From: Acidimicrobiales bacterium
GTDB taxonomy: Bacteria; Actinomycetota; Acidimicrobiia; Acidimicrobiales; AC-9
Reading direction: 5' to 3'
Length of the DNA: 34,330 nt
Assembly (NCBI GenBank): GCA_036270875.1
Contig: DATBBR010000149.1
Span: 1-34,330, forward strand
A program made the position numbers and the translations under genes. Below, one piece after another: positions 13,184 through 31,629 of this stretch. Within the stretch, counting starts at the first letter, position 1; every line of letters begins with the position of its first letter. The notes under the pieces are model-generated. The model made no database searches. It was not told the origin of the DNA and saw only the letters and a program-made list of their open reading frames with translations.

Positions 13184-14638
13184 GTGTCCCGTCCTCGGAT
13201 ACCGCCAGGCGTGCCGGACGGCATCGTGGCCGTGGTCAAGCGTGAATGCGAGACGTGTGTGTCCATCACCCCGGTCCTGGCCCAACTGCGACGCGCCGGC
13301 GTGCCTCTGACCGTGTACACCCAGGATGATCCCGCGTTCCCCGCGGACGTTCCTGATGTCGTGGACGACACCGAGCTGCGCGTGTCGTGGGCCCTCGACC
13401 TCGTCACCGTGCCGACCTTGCTGCGTTTCGAAGGAGGCGTCGAGGTGGCCAGGACGCAGGGCTGGCACAGGCCGCGCTGGGAGGATCTCACCGGCGTCGC
13501 CGGGCTCGGCCCCGATCTCCCCGAGCTCCGTCCCGGTTGCGGGTCGCGCACGGCAGATCCCGCTACGGCCGACGAGCTCGCGGTGCGATTCGCGTCGGGT
13601 CGGCTGCGGGCCCGGCGGGTGGCGCTGGGCTACTCGGAGGACGACACCGAGGCGGCGTTCGACCGGGGATGGACCGACGGGCTTCCGGTCGTCCCGCCAA
13701 CCGAGTCCAGGGTGCTGCGCATGCTCGAGGGGACCCAGCGGGCCGCCGACGAGGTGGTGGCGATCGTTCCGCCTGATCTGGTCGAGTGCACCGTCGAGAA
13801 GGCGGCGATCAACGCGGTCATGGCCGGCTGCCGACCCGAGTACCTGCCGCTCGTGCTGACTGCGGTCGAGGCCTTGTGCACCGACGAGTTCAATGGCCAC
13901 GGGCTCCTGGCGACGACGTACTTCTCCGGGCCGGCCGTGATCGTGAACGGTCCGATCCGTCACGCGATCGGCATGAACTCGGGCGCCAACGTCCTGGGGC
14001 AGGGGAACCGGGCCAACGCCACCATCGGTCGGGCGCTGCAGCTGGTCGTGCGCAACGTCGGCGGGGGAGTGCCCGGCGGTGTCGACCGGGCGACCCTCGG
14101 CAACCCGGGCAAGTACACGTTCTGCTTCGCCGAGGACGAGGAGGGATCTCCCTGGGAGCCGTTGTCGGTCGAGCGGGGGGTCGCTCCCGGTGGATCGGCC
14201 GTCACGCTGTTCGCCGGCGAGGGGCCCCGCGGCGTCGTCGATCAGCTGTCGCGGACGCCCGAGTCCCTCGCCAGATCGTTCGCTGGGAGCCTGCGAACCG
14301 TCGGCCACCACAAGCTGGCGCTCGGCTTCGATGCCATGGTCGTGGTGAGCCCCGAGCACGCCCGGGTCTTTCGCGAGGGGGCGTGGACCAAGGCCAGGCT
14401 CCGGAACGAGCTGCTCGAGCTCCTCACCGTGCCGGGGGCGGAGCTCGTCCGCGGCGCCGACGGGTGCGACGAGGGCCTGCCGGCGGGCCTGGAGGAGGCC
14501 GCCATCCCGAAGTTCCGCCCCGACGGGCTGTGGTTCGTCCACGCCGGCGGGCGAGCCGGGCTGTTCTCGTCCATCATTGGAAGCTGGATCAACGGACCCG
14601 GCGGCAGCCAGGCCGTGACCCGGGAGGTAGGGGTATGA
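13184..14638 (+). CDS. Thioredoxin-like domain fused to a large conserved domain of unknown function, partner of the UGSC selenoprotein
   Basis: The 484-residue protein has two parts. Residues about 10-115 look thioredoxin-like: a redox C22-E-T-C25 after a beta strand (IVAVVKRECETC) and a Thr-Val-cis-Pro-type turn at VTVPTLLRFEGG (about 76-87). Residues about 150-484 are a conserved domain I cannot name, marked by GWTDGLPVVPPTESRV (163-178), CTDEFNGHGLLATTYFSGPA and MNSGANVLGQGNRANATIGR. No function is known to me for it. A further Cys (C120, PGCGS) lies after the thioredoxin-like part. The stop overlaps the ATG of the selenoprotein (ATGA at 14635-14638), which implies translational coupling and a working partnership. 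The CxxC could reduce or be reduced by the Sec centre; this is inference. Confidence 0.8.
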   Translation: MSRPRIPPGVPDGIVAVVKRECETCVSITPVLAQLRRAGVPLTVYTQDDPAFPADVPDVVDDTELRVSWALDLVTVPTLLRFEGGVEVARTQGWHRPRWEDLTGVAGLGPDLPELRPGCGSRTADPATADELAVRFASGRLRARRVALGYSEDDTEAAFDRGWTDGLPVVPPTESRVLRMLEGTQRAADEVVAIVPPDLVECTVEKAAINAVMAGCRPEYLPLVLTAVEALCTDEFNGHGLLATTYFSGPAVIVNGPIRHAIGMNSGANVLGQGNRANATIGRALQLVVRNVGGGVPGGVDRATLGNPGKYTFCFAEDEEGSPWEPLSVERGVAPGGSAVTLFAGEGPRGVVDQLSRTPESLARSFAGSLRTVGHHKLALGFDAMVVVSPEHARVFREGAWTKARLRNELLELLTVPGAELVRGADGCDEGLPAGLEEAAIPKFRPDGLWFVHAGGRAGLFSSIIGSWINGPGGSQAVTREVGV

Positions 14639-15192
14639 CGAGCGACGCCGGTACCGTCCTGTTGGACCCGACCGGTGAGCGTCGGCCCGCGACACGACCG
14701 CGGGTGGCCCGGCCATCGTCGCTGGAGGGCCTGACGGTCGGGCTGCTGGACATCTCGAAGCCACGGGGCGACGTCTTTCTGAGTGCGCTGGAGTCGGCGC
14801 TGACGTCACGGGTCTCAGACCTGCGGGTCGTCCGCTACCGCAAGCCCACCTTCGCCAAGGTGGCGCCGGTCGACCTGCGCCACGAGATCACTACCAAGTG
14901 TGACCTCGTGATCGAGGCGCTCGCCGACTGAGGCAGCTGCACGTCGTGCAGTGTGCACGACATCGCCGACCTGGAGACCCGGGGCCTCCCGGGGGTGTTC
15001 GTCGCCTCCACCGAGTTCATCGCCGCCGCTGCGACGCAGGCTCGCGCCCTGGGCTTCGATCCCGCCCGGGTGTTCGTGCCCCACCCGATCCAGGACCGGA
15101 CCGACGAGGAGATGCGTGCCCTCGCCGACGACGCCGTCGACGAGATCCTCGCCGCCGTGGCCGAGACCGGAGCCCGTCGCACCTCGCCGTGA
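14635..15192 (+). CDS. UGSC-family selenoprotein (in-frame UGA read as selenocysteine)
   Basis: Read through TGA 14929-14931 as selenocysteine, this frame encodes 185 residues. Residues 1-98 end in VIEALAD. U99 follows, then G100-S101-C102-T-S-C105-S-V-H-D. The rest, to residue 185, continues as a normal domain (LPGVFVASTEFI, ARVFVPHPIQDRT). The U-G-S-C tetrapeptide is the signature of the UGSC family, known from predicted bacterial selenoproteins with Cys homologues. Support for readthrough is fourfold: the frame stays open for 87 codons after the TGA, composition stays coding, both ends overlap neighbouring genes (ATGA before, GTGA after), and a SECIS-like hairpin follows. Its biochemical role is unknown; a redox role with the CxxC protein upstream is likely. 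Standard calling would split it into two fragments of 98 and about 79 residues. Confidence 0.88.
14929..14931 (+). other. Selenocysteine codon (UGA, Sec99)
   Basis: This TGA is in frame with both flanking halves and is followed by GGC AGC TGC (Gly-Ser-Cys). It is read as selenocysteine in the UGSC protein rather than as a stop. No selA, selB, selD or tRNA-Sec lies in the window, so the machinery must be encoded elsewhere. Confidence 0.85.
14943..14961 (+). promoter_or_regulatory. Candidate bacterial SECIS hairpin
   Basis: GTCGTGCA (14943-14950) pairs perfectly with TGCACGAC (14954-14961) around a GUG loop. The loop starts 19 nt after the UGA, and G is in the first loop position; both fit the usual description of bacterial SECIS elements read by SelB. 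A competing 6-bp hairpin (CTGCAC 14936-14941 with GTGCAG 14945-14950) lies too close to the UGA. Function needs a structure search to confirm. Confidence 0.65.
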
Positions 15193-17354
15193 CCGCCTTC
15201 GAGGAAGCCGCCGCCCGGGTCGCCGCCGGTGCCGACCACCATGCCGAGGCCGGCGCCCTCGTGCGGGCGATGACCCGGGCCGAGAAGCTCGGCTGTCTCG
15301 ACGGCGACACGCCCTTCTGGGCGGGCATGACCGACATGGTGTCCGGGGGGTACTACCGCCATCCCTGGCCCGCCGCCGCGGTCGAGCGGCTTGGGGTTCC
15401 GGGCCTGCAGTTCAGCGATGGTCCCCGCGGTGTCGTCGTGGGCGTGAGCACCTGCTTTCCCGTGAGCATGGCGCGCGGCGCGACCTTCGACCCTGACCTC
15501 GAAGAGCGCATCGGGGACGCCATCGGGCTCGAGCTCAGAGCGGCGGGGGCGACCTTCTACGGCGGCGTTTGCGTGAACCTCCTGCGCCACCCGGCTTGGG
15601 GCCGGGCCCAGGAGACCTACGGCGAGGATCCCCATCATGTCGGTGAGATGGGCGCGGCCCTCGTGCGGGGCGTGCAACGCCACGCCATGGCCTGTGTGAA
15701 GCACTTCGCCCTCAACTCCATGGAGAACGCCCGCTTCACCGTCGACGTCACGGCTGACGACCGCGCCCTCCACGAGGTGTACCTCCACCACTTCCGTCGC
15801 ATCGTGGCCGAAGGCGTTGCCAGCGTCATGAGCGCCTACAACTCGGTGAACGGCACGTGGTGCGGTCAGAACGCGGAGCTGCTGACCGATGTCCTCCGCC
15901 GGGAATGGGGCTTCGACGGCTTCGTCGTGTCCGACTTCATCTTCGGACTGCGTGACGCGGTGGCCTCTGTCCAGGCGGGGCTGGACGTCGAGATGCCGTT
16001 CGCCCAGCAGCGGGCCCAGCACCTGCCGGAGAAGCTGCGCAGTGGTGACCTGGACGAGGCCGAGGTGGACGCGGCCGCGTCGAGGGTCGTCGCCACCCTG
16101 TTGCGATTCTGGCCCGCGCTGGACCGACCGGGACCTGAGGCGTCCGTCGCGGCATCGGCGGAGCACCGCGCTCTGGCCCGGGAGGCGGCCCGCCGGTCGA
16201 TCGTCCTGCTCCGCAACGAGGGCGGCCTGCTTCCGCTCGATCCATCGGCGCTCAAACGGGTGGCCGTGATCGGGCGTCTGGCCGCCGTGCCCAACCTGGG
16301 CGACGGGGGGTCGAGCGACGTGCATCCGCCCGAGGCGGTCACGCTGCTCGCGGGGATGCGCGCAGCGCTACCGGGCGCCGTCGTCGTGCACCATGACGAC
16401 GACGCGTCGCTGGCCGAGGGATCGGACCTGGCCATCGCCGTCGTCGGCTTCACCAAGGACGACGAGGGCGAGTTCATCGGTGCCGCCGGTGCGATCGATC
16501 TCGCCGTGCTGTTCCCTCCCGCGGACCACCCGACGCTCGGGGTGGGGGCGTCGTCCCGCCAGCGCGCGCCCCTCACCGGCGAACCGGACGAGCGCCCGGC
16601 GGGCCGCCAGCCGACGGCCATGGCGCCCGGGGGTGACCGATCCAACCTGCGCCTGCGGCCCGAGGACGAAGCGCTCCTGCGGTCCGTGGCCTCCCACAAC
16701 TCCCGGACGGTGGTCGTCGTGATGGGCGGCAGCGCGGTCGTGATGCCGTGGTGCGGCGACGTGCCCGTCGTCCTCCTGACGTGGTACCCGGGCATGGAGG
16801 GTGGCCACGCCCTGGCCGATGTCCTCCTCGGCGCGGCCGCCCCGAGCGGCAGGCTGCCCTTCGCTGTGCCTGTTGACGAGGACGACCTCGTGGCCTTCGA
16901 CAAGGATGCCCGCTCGGTGACCTACGACCTGTTCCACGGGCAGTGGAAGCTGGACCGGGATGGCAGGGCGGCGCAGTTCCCCTTTGGCTTCGGCTTGTCG
17001 ACCACCTCCTTCGAGGTCCGCGACGCCCGTCTGGACACTGGGTCGAGGGAGGTCACGGTCACGGTGGCCAACGTCGGGCCGCGCCGCGGCGCCGAGGTCG
17101 TCCAGGTGTATGGCGGCTGTCCGTCGTCATCAGTGCCACGACCCCACCGGCGGCTCGTCGGCTTTCGCCGGGTCGAGCTGGAGGCCGGCCGCTCCTGTCA
17201 GGCGACGGTGCCACTGCACCTCGACGCCTTGGCTGTGCGCCAGGAGGGGCGCATGGTGATCGAGGACGGCGAGGTGGTGTTCACCGTGGCCGACCACGCC
17301 GCGGACCCCGGCATCGAGCTCGATGCCTGCTTCGCCGCTGGCGTCCTCACATGA
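15189..17354 (+). CDS. Glycoside hydrolase family 3 (beta-glucosidase-like)
   Basis: The 721-residue protein has the GH3 architecture. The N-terminal barrel contains LQFSDGPRG, GRAQETYGEDP, the CVKHFALNSMENAR substrate-binding segment (169-182), MSAYNSVNGTWC and the nucleophile D249 (GFVVSDF). The second domain has ARRSIVLLRNEGGLLPLD and an unusually long, Pro/Arg-rich insert around residues 435-480 (DDEGEF through the SSRQRAP region) near where the acid/base Glu normally lies. LTWYPGMEGGHALADVLLG and a fibronectin III-like C-terminus follow. It probably removes beta-glucosyl or related sugars. No signal peptide is visible, so it is likely cytoplasmic and acts on small glycosides. GTG 15189 overlaps the selenoprotein stop (GTGA), which indicates coupling. 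Its 3' end overlaps a convergent gene by 8 bp. Confidence 0.92.
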   Translation: MTAFEEAAARVAAGADHHAEAGALVRAMTRAEKLGCLDGDTPFWAGMTDMVSGGYYRHPWPAAAVERLGVPGLQFSDGPRGVVVGVSTCFPVSMARGATFDPDLEERIGDAIGLELRAAGATFYGGVCVNLLRHPAWGRAQETYGEDPHHVGEMGAALVRGVQRHAMACVKHFALNSMENARFTVDVTADDRALHEVYLHHFRRIVAEGVASVMSAYNSVNGTWCGQNAELLTDVLRREWGFDGFVVSDFIFGLRDAVASVQAGLDVEMPFAQQRAQHLPEKLRSGDLDEAEVDAAASRVVATLLRFWPALDRPGPEASVAASAEHRALAREAARRSIVLLRNEGGLLPLDPSALKRVAVIGRLAAVPNLGDGGSSDVHPPEAVTLLAGMRAALPGAVVVHHDDDASLAEGSDLAIAVVGFTKDDEGEFIGAAGAIDLAVLFPPADHPTLGVGASSRQRAPLTGEPDERPAGRQPTAMAPGGDRSNLRLRPEDEALLRSVASHNSRTVVVVMGGSAVVMPWCGDVPVVLLTWYPGMEGGHALADVLLGAAAPSGRLPFAVPVDEDDLVAFDKDARSVTYDLFHGQWKLDRDGRAAQFPFGFGLSTTSFEVRDARLDTGSREVTVTVANVGPRRGAEVVQVYGGCPSSSVPRPHRRLVGFRRVELEAGRSCQATVPLHLDALAVRQEGRMVIEDGEVVFTVADHAADPGIELDACFAAGVLT

Positions 17355-29007: not shown

Positions 29008-30207
29008 TCAGCCCGGCTGCGAGCCCACGACGCCCACGAACGAGACCATCTCGCCCGGGTAGCCACCCAGGTTGTGAGTGAGCGCCAGGCCACGATCGGC
29101 GGCCGAGGCGACCCGACGGTCGTCTGGGGCCTCGCCCCGGAGCTGGAGCCAGCACTCGAACATCATGCGCAGCCCCGACGCTCCGACCGGGTGGCCGAAG
29201 CTCTTCAGCCCGCCGTCGGGGTTGACGGGAAGGTCGCCGTCCAGGTCGAAGCTCCCGGCCAGCTCCTCCTTCCACGCCGTGCCCCGCTCGGCGAATCCCA
29301 GGTCCTCCATGAGCACCAGCTCCGTCGGCGTGAAGCAGTCGTGGACCTCGGCCATGGCCAGCTGGCGGCGCGGATCGGTGACGCCCGCCTGCTTGTAGGC
29401 GTCGGCGGCGCACCGCTCGACCTCGGGGAAGTGGGTGAAGTCGTACTCGGGGTCGATCACACCCGATCCGGTGCCGGCCACCAGCGACAGCGCCTTCACG
29501 TAGATGGGCCGGTCCGTGTACCGGTGGGCGTCCTCCGCCCGCACCACGATGGCCGCCGCCGCGCCGTCGGCGACCCCGGCACAGTCGTACACCCCGAGCG
29601 GCCCCGCCACGCGCGGCATGTTGCAGATGACGTCCTGAGCCACCTCGCGACGGAACTGGGCCCGTGAGTTGCGGGCCCCGTTGTGATGGTTCTTCCAGGC
29701 GATGCGGGCCAGCACGTCCTTGAGCTCGGCCTCGTCGACCCCGTACTTCTTGGCGTAGGCCGGGGCGACGAGGCTGAACATGGCGGCGGCCGTCAGCGAC
29801 CGGCCGGTGCCGTCGGTCGGAGCCTTGCCGGCTCCGCTGAGGCCCTGGTAGCCGCCATCCTTCACCTTCTCCACGCCGATGGCCATGGCCACGTCGTAGC
29901 CGCCCGCAGCCACTGCGTAGGCGGCGCCGCGCAGGGCCTCCGAGCCCGTGGCGCAGAAGTTCTCCACGTGGGTCACCGGCTTGTCGTGGAGCTTGAGCGG
30001 GCGAGCCAGGGCGATACCGCTGTTCCCTGACATGGCGGTGCCGAGCCAGTAGGCGTCGACATCGGCCTTCTCCATCCCGGCCGAGGCGAAGGTCTCCTGG
30101 GCGGCGTCGACCAGCATGTCGTCGGTGCTCTTGTTCCAGTGCTCGCGAAACGGGGTGCATCCCATCCCGACGATGGCCACCTTGTCCTTGATGCCGTGCG
30201 ATGCCAC
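29008..30207 (-). CDS. Thiolase-like protein (SCP-x/lipid-transfer type)
   Basis: The 399-residue protein belongs to the thiolase superfamily. C85 (ENFCATGSEAL) is the acyl-carrying nucleophile, H289-D-C291 (EVHDCFTPTE) and H339 (GGLKSFGHPVGASG) complete the site, and NLGGYPGE near the end replaces the Cys loop of biosynthetic thiolases. This pattern is that of SCP-x thiolases and Ltp proteins, which cleave or retro-aldol acyl-CoA side chains, often with a DUF35 partner. It starts 3 bp after the stop of the HMG-CoA-synthase-like/DUF35 fusion, with AAGGAG upstream inside that gap region, so the two proteins likely form a complex. The GNAT gene follows. Confidence 0.9.
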   Translation of the reverse strand: MASHGIKDKVAIVGMGCTPFREHWNKSTDDMLVDAAQETFASAGMEKADVDAYWLGTAMSGNSGIALARPLKLHDKPVTHVENFCATGSEALRGAAYAVAAGGYDVAMAIGVEKVKDGGYQGLSGAGKAPTDGTGRSLTAAAMFSLVAPAYAKKYGVDEAELKDVLARIAWKNHHNGARNSRAQFRREVAQDVICNMPRVAGPLGVYDCAGVADGAAAAIVVRAEDAHRYTDRPIYVKALSLVAGTGSGVIDPEYDFTHFPEVERCAADAYKQAGVTDPRRQLAMAEVHDCFTPTELVLMEDLGFAERGTAWKEELAGSFDLDGDLPVNPDGGLKSFGHPVGASGLRMMFECWLQLRGEAPDDRRVASAADRGLALTHNLGGYPGEMVSFVGVVGSQPG

Positions 30208-30210
30208 TGA

Positions 30211-31629
30211 TCAGCTCCTTGGGATCCGAATGGGTCGGGCCTTCCAAAAATAGTTGTGGATGCCGTCGGCGGTGGAGAGGCGGCGGAACGTCATCTCGAC
30301 CCGGTCGCCGATCGACAGGTCCTCGGCGTCGACGTCGGTGAGCTCGGACGCGAAGCGCCCACCACCGTCGAAGTCGAGAACGGCGAAGACCACCGGCGGG
30401 CTGGGCGAGTAGACGAGCCGGTCGACCGTGAAGGTCACGACAGTGGCGGGGACGTCCGCCATCGGCACCGGCTCCATGTCGTCCACGGCGTCACCCTTCA
30501 TCGATATCCGCGCCGGGGGGAGATGGATGGCCCCGCTCGAGCGGTCTCGCGAGCCCACGAAGGCGAACTTCCACTCCTCGCTGCGGGCCGCGGCCGAGGA
30601 CGAGGTCCGCTCAGGCTCCGGGCGGCGGGGCGGCTCCACGGGCAACAGCCCCCGCCAGCTCAGGAACTTGGCGTAGGGGATGCTTGCGCCCGCCTCGACC
30701 TGGGCGGCAACGGGCCGCGCCGGCGTGAACGACGACAGGGCATCGCCGGCGCGGAACACCAGCACGTCAGCCCCGTCGGCCAGCACCACGAGGGCGATGA
30801 CCTGACCCGGTCGGGCCCCCTCCAGGGCCGAGGCGAGCAGCAGCCCGGGATGGGCGGTCCCGGTGTTGCCCACCGTCGTCGACAGGTCGTCGACCAGCGC
30901 CTCCTTGGCTGTTCCCAGCCGGCCGGCGAGCGAGCGCACGGCCCGGGCGTGGGTGCCGGTGACGACGATCCGGTCGACCTGCTCGGCCGTGATCGTCGAC
31001 GCCTTGAGGGCGTCGTTCCACGCCCGCTCGCCGAGGGGAAGGTAGGCAGTCTCGCCGAAGCGCTCCTCCCACACCTTCGAGCGCACGTCCCCCGGCGCGC
31101 GCCAGCGGTCGGTGAACTCCTCGGTGGCCGACGCCCCGCCCAGGTAGGTGGCCAGCACCGGTCCATCCGACTCGCTTCCAGTCAGGATGGCTGCGGCGCC
31201 GTCGCCACCGGAAGACTCATCCGCGCTAGAGGGCAGTCCCGTCCGCATGTCGGAGGTCACCACGAGGACCGAGCGAGTGCTGTCCAGGGCGGCTCGCAGC
31301 GCTCCCACGCCCGAGCGCACGGCCCCGCCCATGTCGATCGCCGGCCGGTCGGAGTCCAATCGCAGGGCGGCGTGGATGGCTGTGGCGTTCGTCTTGTCCT
31401 GGTAGGCCGGCGTCGCAGTGGAGAACCACAGCTCGTCCGGCTCGTGCCCCGCGGGGGACGAGTCGAGGGCCAGTCGGGCCGCCTCCATCCCCATCGTCGT
31501 GGTGTCCTCGTCGTAGGAGGCCACCGATCTGGTGCCCTTGGCGGGCGCTCCGCCGAGCACCTCGGCGATGGCGGAGCGAGCCAGGCGTCGATACGGCACG
31601 TAGCTGCTGAAGCTGAGGATTCCTCGCAT
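30211..31629 (-). CDS. HMG-CoA synthase-like (KAS III fold) protein fused to a DUF35 OB-fold, catalytic Cys replaced
   Basis: This 472-residue protein joins a thiolase-fold HMG-CoA-synthase-like domain (1-305) to a C-terminal DUF35 OB-fold (about 310-472). Motifs of the first are SYVPYRRL, ASYDEDTTTMGMEAARLAL, H228 (VVTGTHARAV) and N256 (TVGNTGTAHPG). The segment that normally reads FACKAGTAAL, with the acyl-enzyme Cys, reads GAVRSGVGAL, so Cys is Val104 and condensation by the normal route is not possible. In the DUF35 part, the zinc-ribbon Cys residues are also missing (FAFVGSRDRS, LPPARIS). Archaea encode HMG-CoA synthase, DUF35 and thiolase separately as one complex; here two parts are fused and the thiolase is the next gene. 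A scaffold or non-condensing role is likely. GAAGG lies 4 nt before the ATG. Confidence 0.85.
   Translation of the reverse strand: MRGILSFSSYVPYRRLARSAIAEVLGGAPAKGTRSVASYDEDTTTMGMEAARLALDSSPAGHEPDELWFSTATPAYQDKTNATAIHAALRLDSDRPAIDMGGAVRSGVGALRAALDSTRSVLVVTSDMRTGLPSSADESSGGDGAAAILTGSESDGPVLATYLGGASATEEFTDRWRAPGDVRSKVWEERFGETAYLPLGERAWNDALKASTITAEQVDRIVVTGTHARAVRSLAGRLGTAKEALVDDLSTTVGNTGTAHPGLLLASALEGARPGQVIALVVLADGADVLVFRAGDALSSFTPARPVAAQVEAGASIPYAKFLSWRGLLPVEPPRRPEPERTSSSAAARSEEWKFAFVGSRDRSSGAIHLPPARISMKGDAVDDMEPVPMADVPATVVTFTVDRLVYSPSPPVVFAVLDFDGGGRFASELTDVDAEDLSIGDRVEMTFRRLSTADGIHNYFWKARPIRIPRS

Follow-up and report, generated by a model that had tools for sequence, protein, structure and literature searches.

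The window analysed here, a stretch of 34,330 nucleotides from an Acidimicrobiales bacterium, contains a selenoprotein gene of the UGSC family (14635..15192, + strand; 185 amino acids through read-through of an in-frame TGA) and, directly upstream, a conserved partner gene for a protein of 484 amino acids (13184..14638, + strand; the GTG start is provisional). On balance, we consider it probable that the two products form a thioredoxin-driven two-subunit reductase of the GrdB/PrdB type, with UGSC as the catalytic selenocysteine (Sec) subunit and the upstream gene product as the other subunit. The gene pair, the residues with their conservation and the decoding apparatus are direct observations. 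The UGSC family has been known since 2008 from the GOS survey (PMC2398784), in whose marine and freshwater metagenomes it ranked among the major selenoprotein families, and it was still without an assigned function in a 2026 review (PMC13188914). The adjacency of UGSC and its partner is new, as it was not found in the literature searched. The pairing is the first concrete lead on the role of the family and names two proteins to co-express.

The UGSC frame begins at an ATG (14635) that overlaps the TGA stop of the partner gene (ATGA, 14635-14638), meets the TGA of codon 99 at 14929-14931, continues with Gly-Ser-Cys-Thr-Ser-Cys and ends at the TGA of 15190-15192. This is the frame described by the first-pass annotation; its count of 87 further codons corresponds to 86 sense codons and the stop, and its 185-residue product stands. 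The overlap of the stop with the next gene is also probably right, the start of the following glycosidase gene being most plausibly the GTG at 15189. Because the window is GC-rich and many of its frames are open, an open frame past the TGA carries little weight alone; as judged from sequence comparison, what goes beyond chance is that the product is homologous to the family both before and after the TGA. The read-through product scores above the curated cut-offs of two family models, NF041046 (162 bits, cut-off 125) and PF24696 (155.4 bits, cut-off 25, E 2e-45), and residues 1-98 alone reach only E 6e-18 with the latter. The proposed family identity is thereby upheld, and the window gene is a new member of an already known selenoprotein family. 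Purifying selection is alike upstream (dN/dS 0.08-0.52) and downstream (0.13-0.36) of the TGA in eight pairwise comparisons. The family motif is present as TGA-Gly-Ser-Cys at 14929-14940, and among 24 diverse UGSC members position 99, Gly100 and Cys102 (14938..14940, + strand; the presumed resolving Cys) are all invariant. Conservation of Cys105 (14947-14949) is confined to the UGSC subfamily of the window gene.

The partner is larger than UGSC and highly conserved, with many invariant residues. Its main domain (residues 138-484; 13595..14635, + strand) has no Pfam or NCBIfam match and adjoins, or is fused to, almost every UGSC examined. No Pfam match to the partner protein was found even at E 10, and the window partner itself has no NCBIfam match, while some orthologues match a thioredoxin model. 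Sequence searches of solved structures revealed no relative of UGSC or of the partner. Profiles of both proteins identified the pair in 196 of 211 loci, a set that was partly fetched with the partner as query; among the loci fetched with UGSC as query, the partner is present in 87 of 91, and of the four loci without it one is close to the end of a contig. Pseudonocardia bannensis and Geodermatophilus obscurus are among the carriers of the pair. Where both are present, the distance between them is within 300 bp in 187 of the 196 loci, in either order, and eight of the 196 appear to encode a fusion, a single chain of 567-591 residues. The domain from residue 138 onward was found beside nearly every UGSC paralogue, whether upstream, downstream or fused. 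In the closest relatives the partner also accompanies UGSC, the upstream copy in L023 being only partial and displaced. Several of the apparent lone genes are contig ends, and in the betaproteobacterial genome G150 a partner and its UGSC are about 5 kb apart on one contig. The claim of the first-pass annotation that the gene has an informative operon context thus holds upstream, where the partner is conserved, and fails downstream, where the neighbour is not conserved beside UGSC beyond the genus. This neighbour is a GH3 glycosidase gene (15189..17354, + strand; GTGA overlap with the UGSC stop). It lies beside UGSC in one of two same-genus genomes (in G002, not at the G001 locus), three more distant loci do not have it there, and it is probably not functionally linked to UGSC. 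GH3 and DUF72 were considered as a pathway context and rejected, because in the compared loci from beyond the genus neither stays next to UGSC.

The N-terminal part of the partner (residues 12-105; 13217..13498, + strand) has a thioredoxin fold, with a VIA-align Z of 10.1 to 3ios and an rmsd of 3.2 over 105 residues, and carries the motif CETC (Cys22/Cys25, 13247-13258). Cys25 is invariant and Cys22 is found in 45 of 46 orthologues, 14 of which match TIGR01068. This domain with its two cysteines was found only in the partner subfamily of the window gene; since most paralogous partners do not have it, it is not essential to the whole superfamily. Between the two domains lies Cys119 (RPGCGS; 13538..13540, + strand). 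In two betaproteobacterial partner genes a TGA takes the very place of this Cys, which all the other aligned orthologues share, and among 30 orthologues related to G150 codon 119 is TGA in 23 (L221, L225, L227, L228 and L230-L248) and TGC or TGT in seven. The TGA forms share a downstream hairpin, CUCG-A-GCC-CGGGGU-GGC-CGAG, down to third codon positions, which is absent from the Cys119 forms; in L243 both sides of one of its pairs have changed. The UGSC gene of the same locus also has TGA in most cases. We found no description of a Sec119 partner in the literature searched, and on these sequence features it is probably an undescribed selenoprotein, which annotation would truncate. Because Sec occupies the same position in the betaproteobacterial orthologues, Cys119 of the window protein is likely to be a redox residue. 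The selenoproteome of G150, the genome of L192, is unusually large: it has 25 UGSC matches, each with an internal TGA.

Around the paralogous pairs, the gene families met most often are short-chain dehydrogenases/reductases (SDRs), acyl-CoA dehydrogenases, enoyl-CoA hydratases, thiolases and amidohydrolases. In nine cases the orthologous UGSC-partner pair also has thiolase genes next to it. Elsewhere in the window (29011-31629, - strand), a thiolase-like gene adjoins a gene with matches to an ACP_syn_III C-terminal domain and a ChsH2-type OB-fold domain, a gene pair that looks like acyl-CoA catabolism. In proteobacterial loci (L132, L134, L143, L173 and L179), selA and in some cases selB adjoin the partner-UGSC pair, an assignment inferred for each locus from gene length (a 1.4-kb gene downstream of UGSC).

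The structure of UGSC was predicted with AlphaFold (pLDDT 89, 57 sequences). The model has alternating strands and helices (E-H-E-H-E-H-E-H-E-H) in a predicted Rossmann-like alpha/beta domain, and Sec99 sits at the predicted N-cap, where helix 100-115 begins. The strand and helix order of thioredoxin was not found in this model, so that the prediction gives no support to the thioredoxin-like fold which the GOS survey (PMC2398784) proposed for the family. A Foldseek search of the PDB with the model returned weak Rossmann- and flavodoxin-like matches (best E 7e-5, TM about 0.5 or less), and because they are weak no specific structural relative is claimed. Apart from UGSC itself, the NCBIfam models matched repeatedly by the 24 diverse members were TIGR01917 (15 members), GrdF (12), TIGR01918 (seven), GrdH (five) and PrdB (four), all of the selenoprotein B family of glycine, sarcosine, betaine and D-proline reductase. 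None of the GrdB/PrdB cut-offs was reached (18.6 bits against 602 for TIGR01917), and PF07355 had no match at E 1 in any of the 24. When the UGSC profile was aligned by hhalign with GrdB-like and PrdB-like selenoproteins of the same order, the Sec positions coincided, at scores of 32.6 (35% probability) and 40.0 (74%) from a single pair each; the maxima of 200 column shuffles were 25.9 and 23.2, respectively, and reversed profiles gave 12.7 and 19.3. These comparisons point to a homology between UGSC and GrdB/PrdB that appears real but distant and does not amount to membership. The relation is new, as it was not found in the literature searched. Genomes of this order, which stand apart from the anaerobic amino-acid fermenters best known for glycine reductase, encode full-length GrdB-like selenoproteins (T-U-G-T-G-T-R-C; L249-L259), and short PrdB-like selenoproteins (V-P-V-U-P-V-C and variants; L261-L273) are common in the order, with several per genome. 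The partner domain was also considered as a GrdB relative and rejected, since the comparison showed no similarity. Fold searches with the partner gave no convincing match to its large domain, the match list being filled by its thioredoxin domain. A pyruvoyl-type mechanism, which would call for a proprotein partner such as GrdE or PrdA, is not supported by these searches, in which the partner showed neither GrdB similarity, nor a Pfam match at E 10, nor a convincing fold match.

In glycine and D-proline reductase, a Sec nucleophile attacks the substrate, the resulting C-Se bond is broken and a selenenylsulfide is formed, and glycine reductase is fed by thioredoxin (PMC10298544). By analogy, we propose that UGSC and the partner would form a complex that carries out a reductive reaction. 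The substrate would bind where UGSC and the partner domain meet, and the Sec99 selenolate would attack an activated carbon or heteroatom in it, in the manner of these two reductases. Cys102 would then displace the product and form a selenenylsulfide with Sec99. The selenolate could be restored by Cys22/Cys25 of the partner thioredoxin domain through Cys119 (Sec in betaproteobacterial orthologues), giving a putative electron path from thioredoxin to Cys119, to Cys102/Sec99 and to the substrate. The neighbouring genes (SDRs, acyl-CoA dehydrogenases, thiolases and amidohydrolases) suggest that the substrates may be small organic or CoA-linked catabolites.

Two other functions deserve consideration. 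Following a suggestion of the GOS survey (PMC2398784), UGSC could have a thioredoxin-like fold and act in general thiol redox chemistry or as an antioxidant, with the partner as no more than its reductase. The U-x-x-C motif and the thioredoxin domain of the window partner are in keeping with this, and thiol oxidoreductases are, according to the same survey, the majority of selenoproteins (PMC2398784). We nevertheless regard it as unlikely, given the Rossmann-like rather than thioredoxin-like order of strands and helices in the model (pLDDT 89) and the relation of UGSC to GrdB/PrdB. Up to 25 paralogues per genome and their catabolic neighbours also argue for substrate diversification, and for these reasons catabolic enzymes with different substrates fit better than a single housekeeping antioxidant. 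Less likely again is that the partner domain transforms the substrate non-reductively, for instance as a lyase, and that UGSC only repairs or activates it. The size of the partner, its high conservation and its many invariant residues would suit such a role, and Foldseek gives it a weak similarity to fumarate hydratase (E 5e-3). This match is not significant, the invariant residues of UGSC are centred on Sec-Gly-x-Cys, and Sec is also found in the linker of the partner, all of which speak against this reading.

As to the decoding of codon 99, the window gene is almost certainly a genuine UGSC selenoprotein gene whose UGA is translated by the cell's own Sec machinery with the help of a SECIS element. 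The Sec reading of the first-pass annotation is supported by the family scores given above, the Sec machinery and the conservation of the TGA, and none of the three outcomes that it named as refuting came about. The covariation of the SECIS supports it too. The source genome encodes tRNA-Sec (67.9 bits; anticodon loop CUUCAAA, anticodon UCA), selA (402 bits), selB (277 bits) and selD (333 bits); selA and selB are neighbours on one contig. UGSC homologues do not stop at residue 98, and versions with Cys at position 99 exist in five paralogues and one orthologue. Among 89 UGSC loci of the order, codon 99 is TGA in 84 and Cys in five, and in 72 loci drawn widely from the bacteria it is TGA in 69, TAG in two and TGC in one. 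SelB is present in 61 of 64 genomes with a TGA-containing UGSC gene and in 23 of 84 other genomes (Fisher p ~2e-18, kinship ignored), and it had no match at the threshold used in two surveyed genomes with only Cys forms (G021 and G054).

A bacterial SECIS-like hairpin with an 8-bp stem and the apical loop G23-U24-G25 is located at 14943..14961 (+ strand), +15 to +33 from the U of the UGA. It thus lies just 3' of the UGA and has the apical GU expected of bacterial selenoprotein genes, with G23-U24 at the position known from the E. coli SECIS element. The loop starts with GT in all 112 genes of the two main motif classes (63/63 with T[ST]CSVHD and 49/49 with TSCSLHD), and L186, the single Cys orthologue of the set, does not have the GU loop. 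The wobble-wobble pairs 18-30 and 21-27 each join two third codon positions; over all Sec genes, and with kinship ignored, none of 2000 shuffles kept them paired as often as observed.

A telling confirmation comes from Geodermatophilus obscurus and Candidatus Blastococcus massiliensis, where the UGSC codon is TAG (position 6299 of L181, L130) and the tRNA-Sec (L202, L203) has the anticodon CUA, that is, codon and anticodon have changed together. ARAGORN labels these CUA tRNAs as tRNA-Pyl. As UAG-encoded Sec in Geodermatophilaceae, including UGSC-motif proteins, and the CUA tRNA-Sec are already reported in PMC5330540, which cites earlier work, these cases confirm and are not a discovery. Read-through by itself does not identify the residue inserted, and the Cys at position 99 of five paralogues and one orthologue might suggest that the UGA is read as Cys, or else as Trp; this is nevertheless highly improbable in view of the UCA tRNA-Sec and the selA, selB and selD genes, the CUA anticodon wherever the codon is TAG, and the Cys-only genomes without SelB. 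Equally remote is a true stop or a sequencing error leaving a 98-residue fragment or a broken Cys gene. In its favour, the standard bacterial code reads TGA as a stop, and a single assembly does not by itself exclude an error, but the comparative data already contradict this: the 30 closest genes, including the window gene and two from other genomes of the same genus, all have TGA across many genera of the order, so that it is not a sequencing error, and the downstream selection, the full Sec machinery, the SECIS covariation and the TAG/CUA co-change also stand against it.

The partner subunit, the second Sec site, the built-in thioredoxin and the relation to GrdB/PrdB provide a testable enzyme hypothesis for a family without an assigned function. 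More tentatively than for the window pair alone, we suggest that UGSC and its partner could represent an unrecognised and widespread reductase superfamily, with glycine and D-proline reductase, both Stickland enzymes, as relatives. It would occur in free-living lineages far from amino-acid fermenters, with up to 25 paralogues per genome for the reductive cleavage of different organic substrates, and both subunits would be selenoproteins in one betaproteobacterial lineage.

Compared with known systems, the window protein shares with the UGSC family (NF041046, PF24696) the U-G-S-C motif and a downstream SECIS, and Cys homologues exist. To what is published on the family, the present analysis adds the conserved partner, the predicted non-thioredoxin fold and the link to GrdB/PrdB. 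The window organism uses the ordinary UGA/UCA pair for Sec, whereas UAG/CUA is reported for Geodermatophilaceae. The UGSC/Unknown_1 fusion in the GOS survey (PMC2398784) joins a conserved domain to UGSC that is probably the partner domain described here. The survey gives it only as a fusion of unknown meaning, whereas here it is a standing partner, usually encoded by a separate gene, with thioredoxin-fused and Sec-containing versions. The Sec of UGSC can be aligned with that of GrdB/GrdF/GrdH (TIGR01917, TIGR01918, PF07355) and PrdB (TIGR04483), with U-G-S-C-T-S-C in place of U-G-T-G-T-R-C or U-P-V-C, but UGSC is a single short domain and the GrdB chain is longer, and the window partner, which has no Pfam match, is not detectably related to GrdB. 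The GrdB/PrdB systems have a second subunit as partner and glycine reductase uses a thioredoxin-type reductant, and the window pair is alike in its genes. The window genes provide the ingredients of glycine and D-proline reductase: a Sec domain related to theirs, an invariant Cys at the second residue after Gly100, and a second subunit with a thioredoxin built in.
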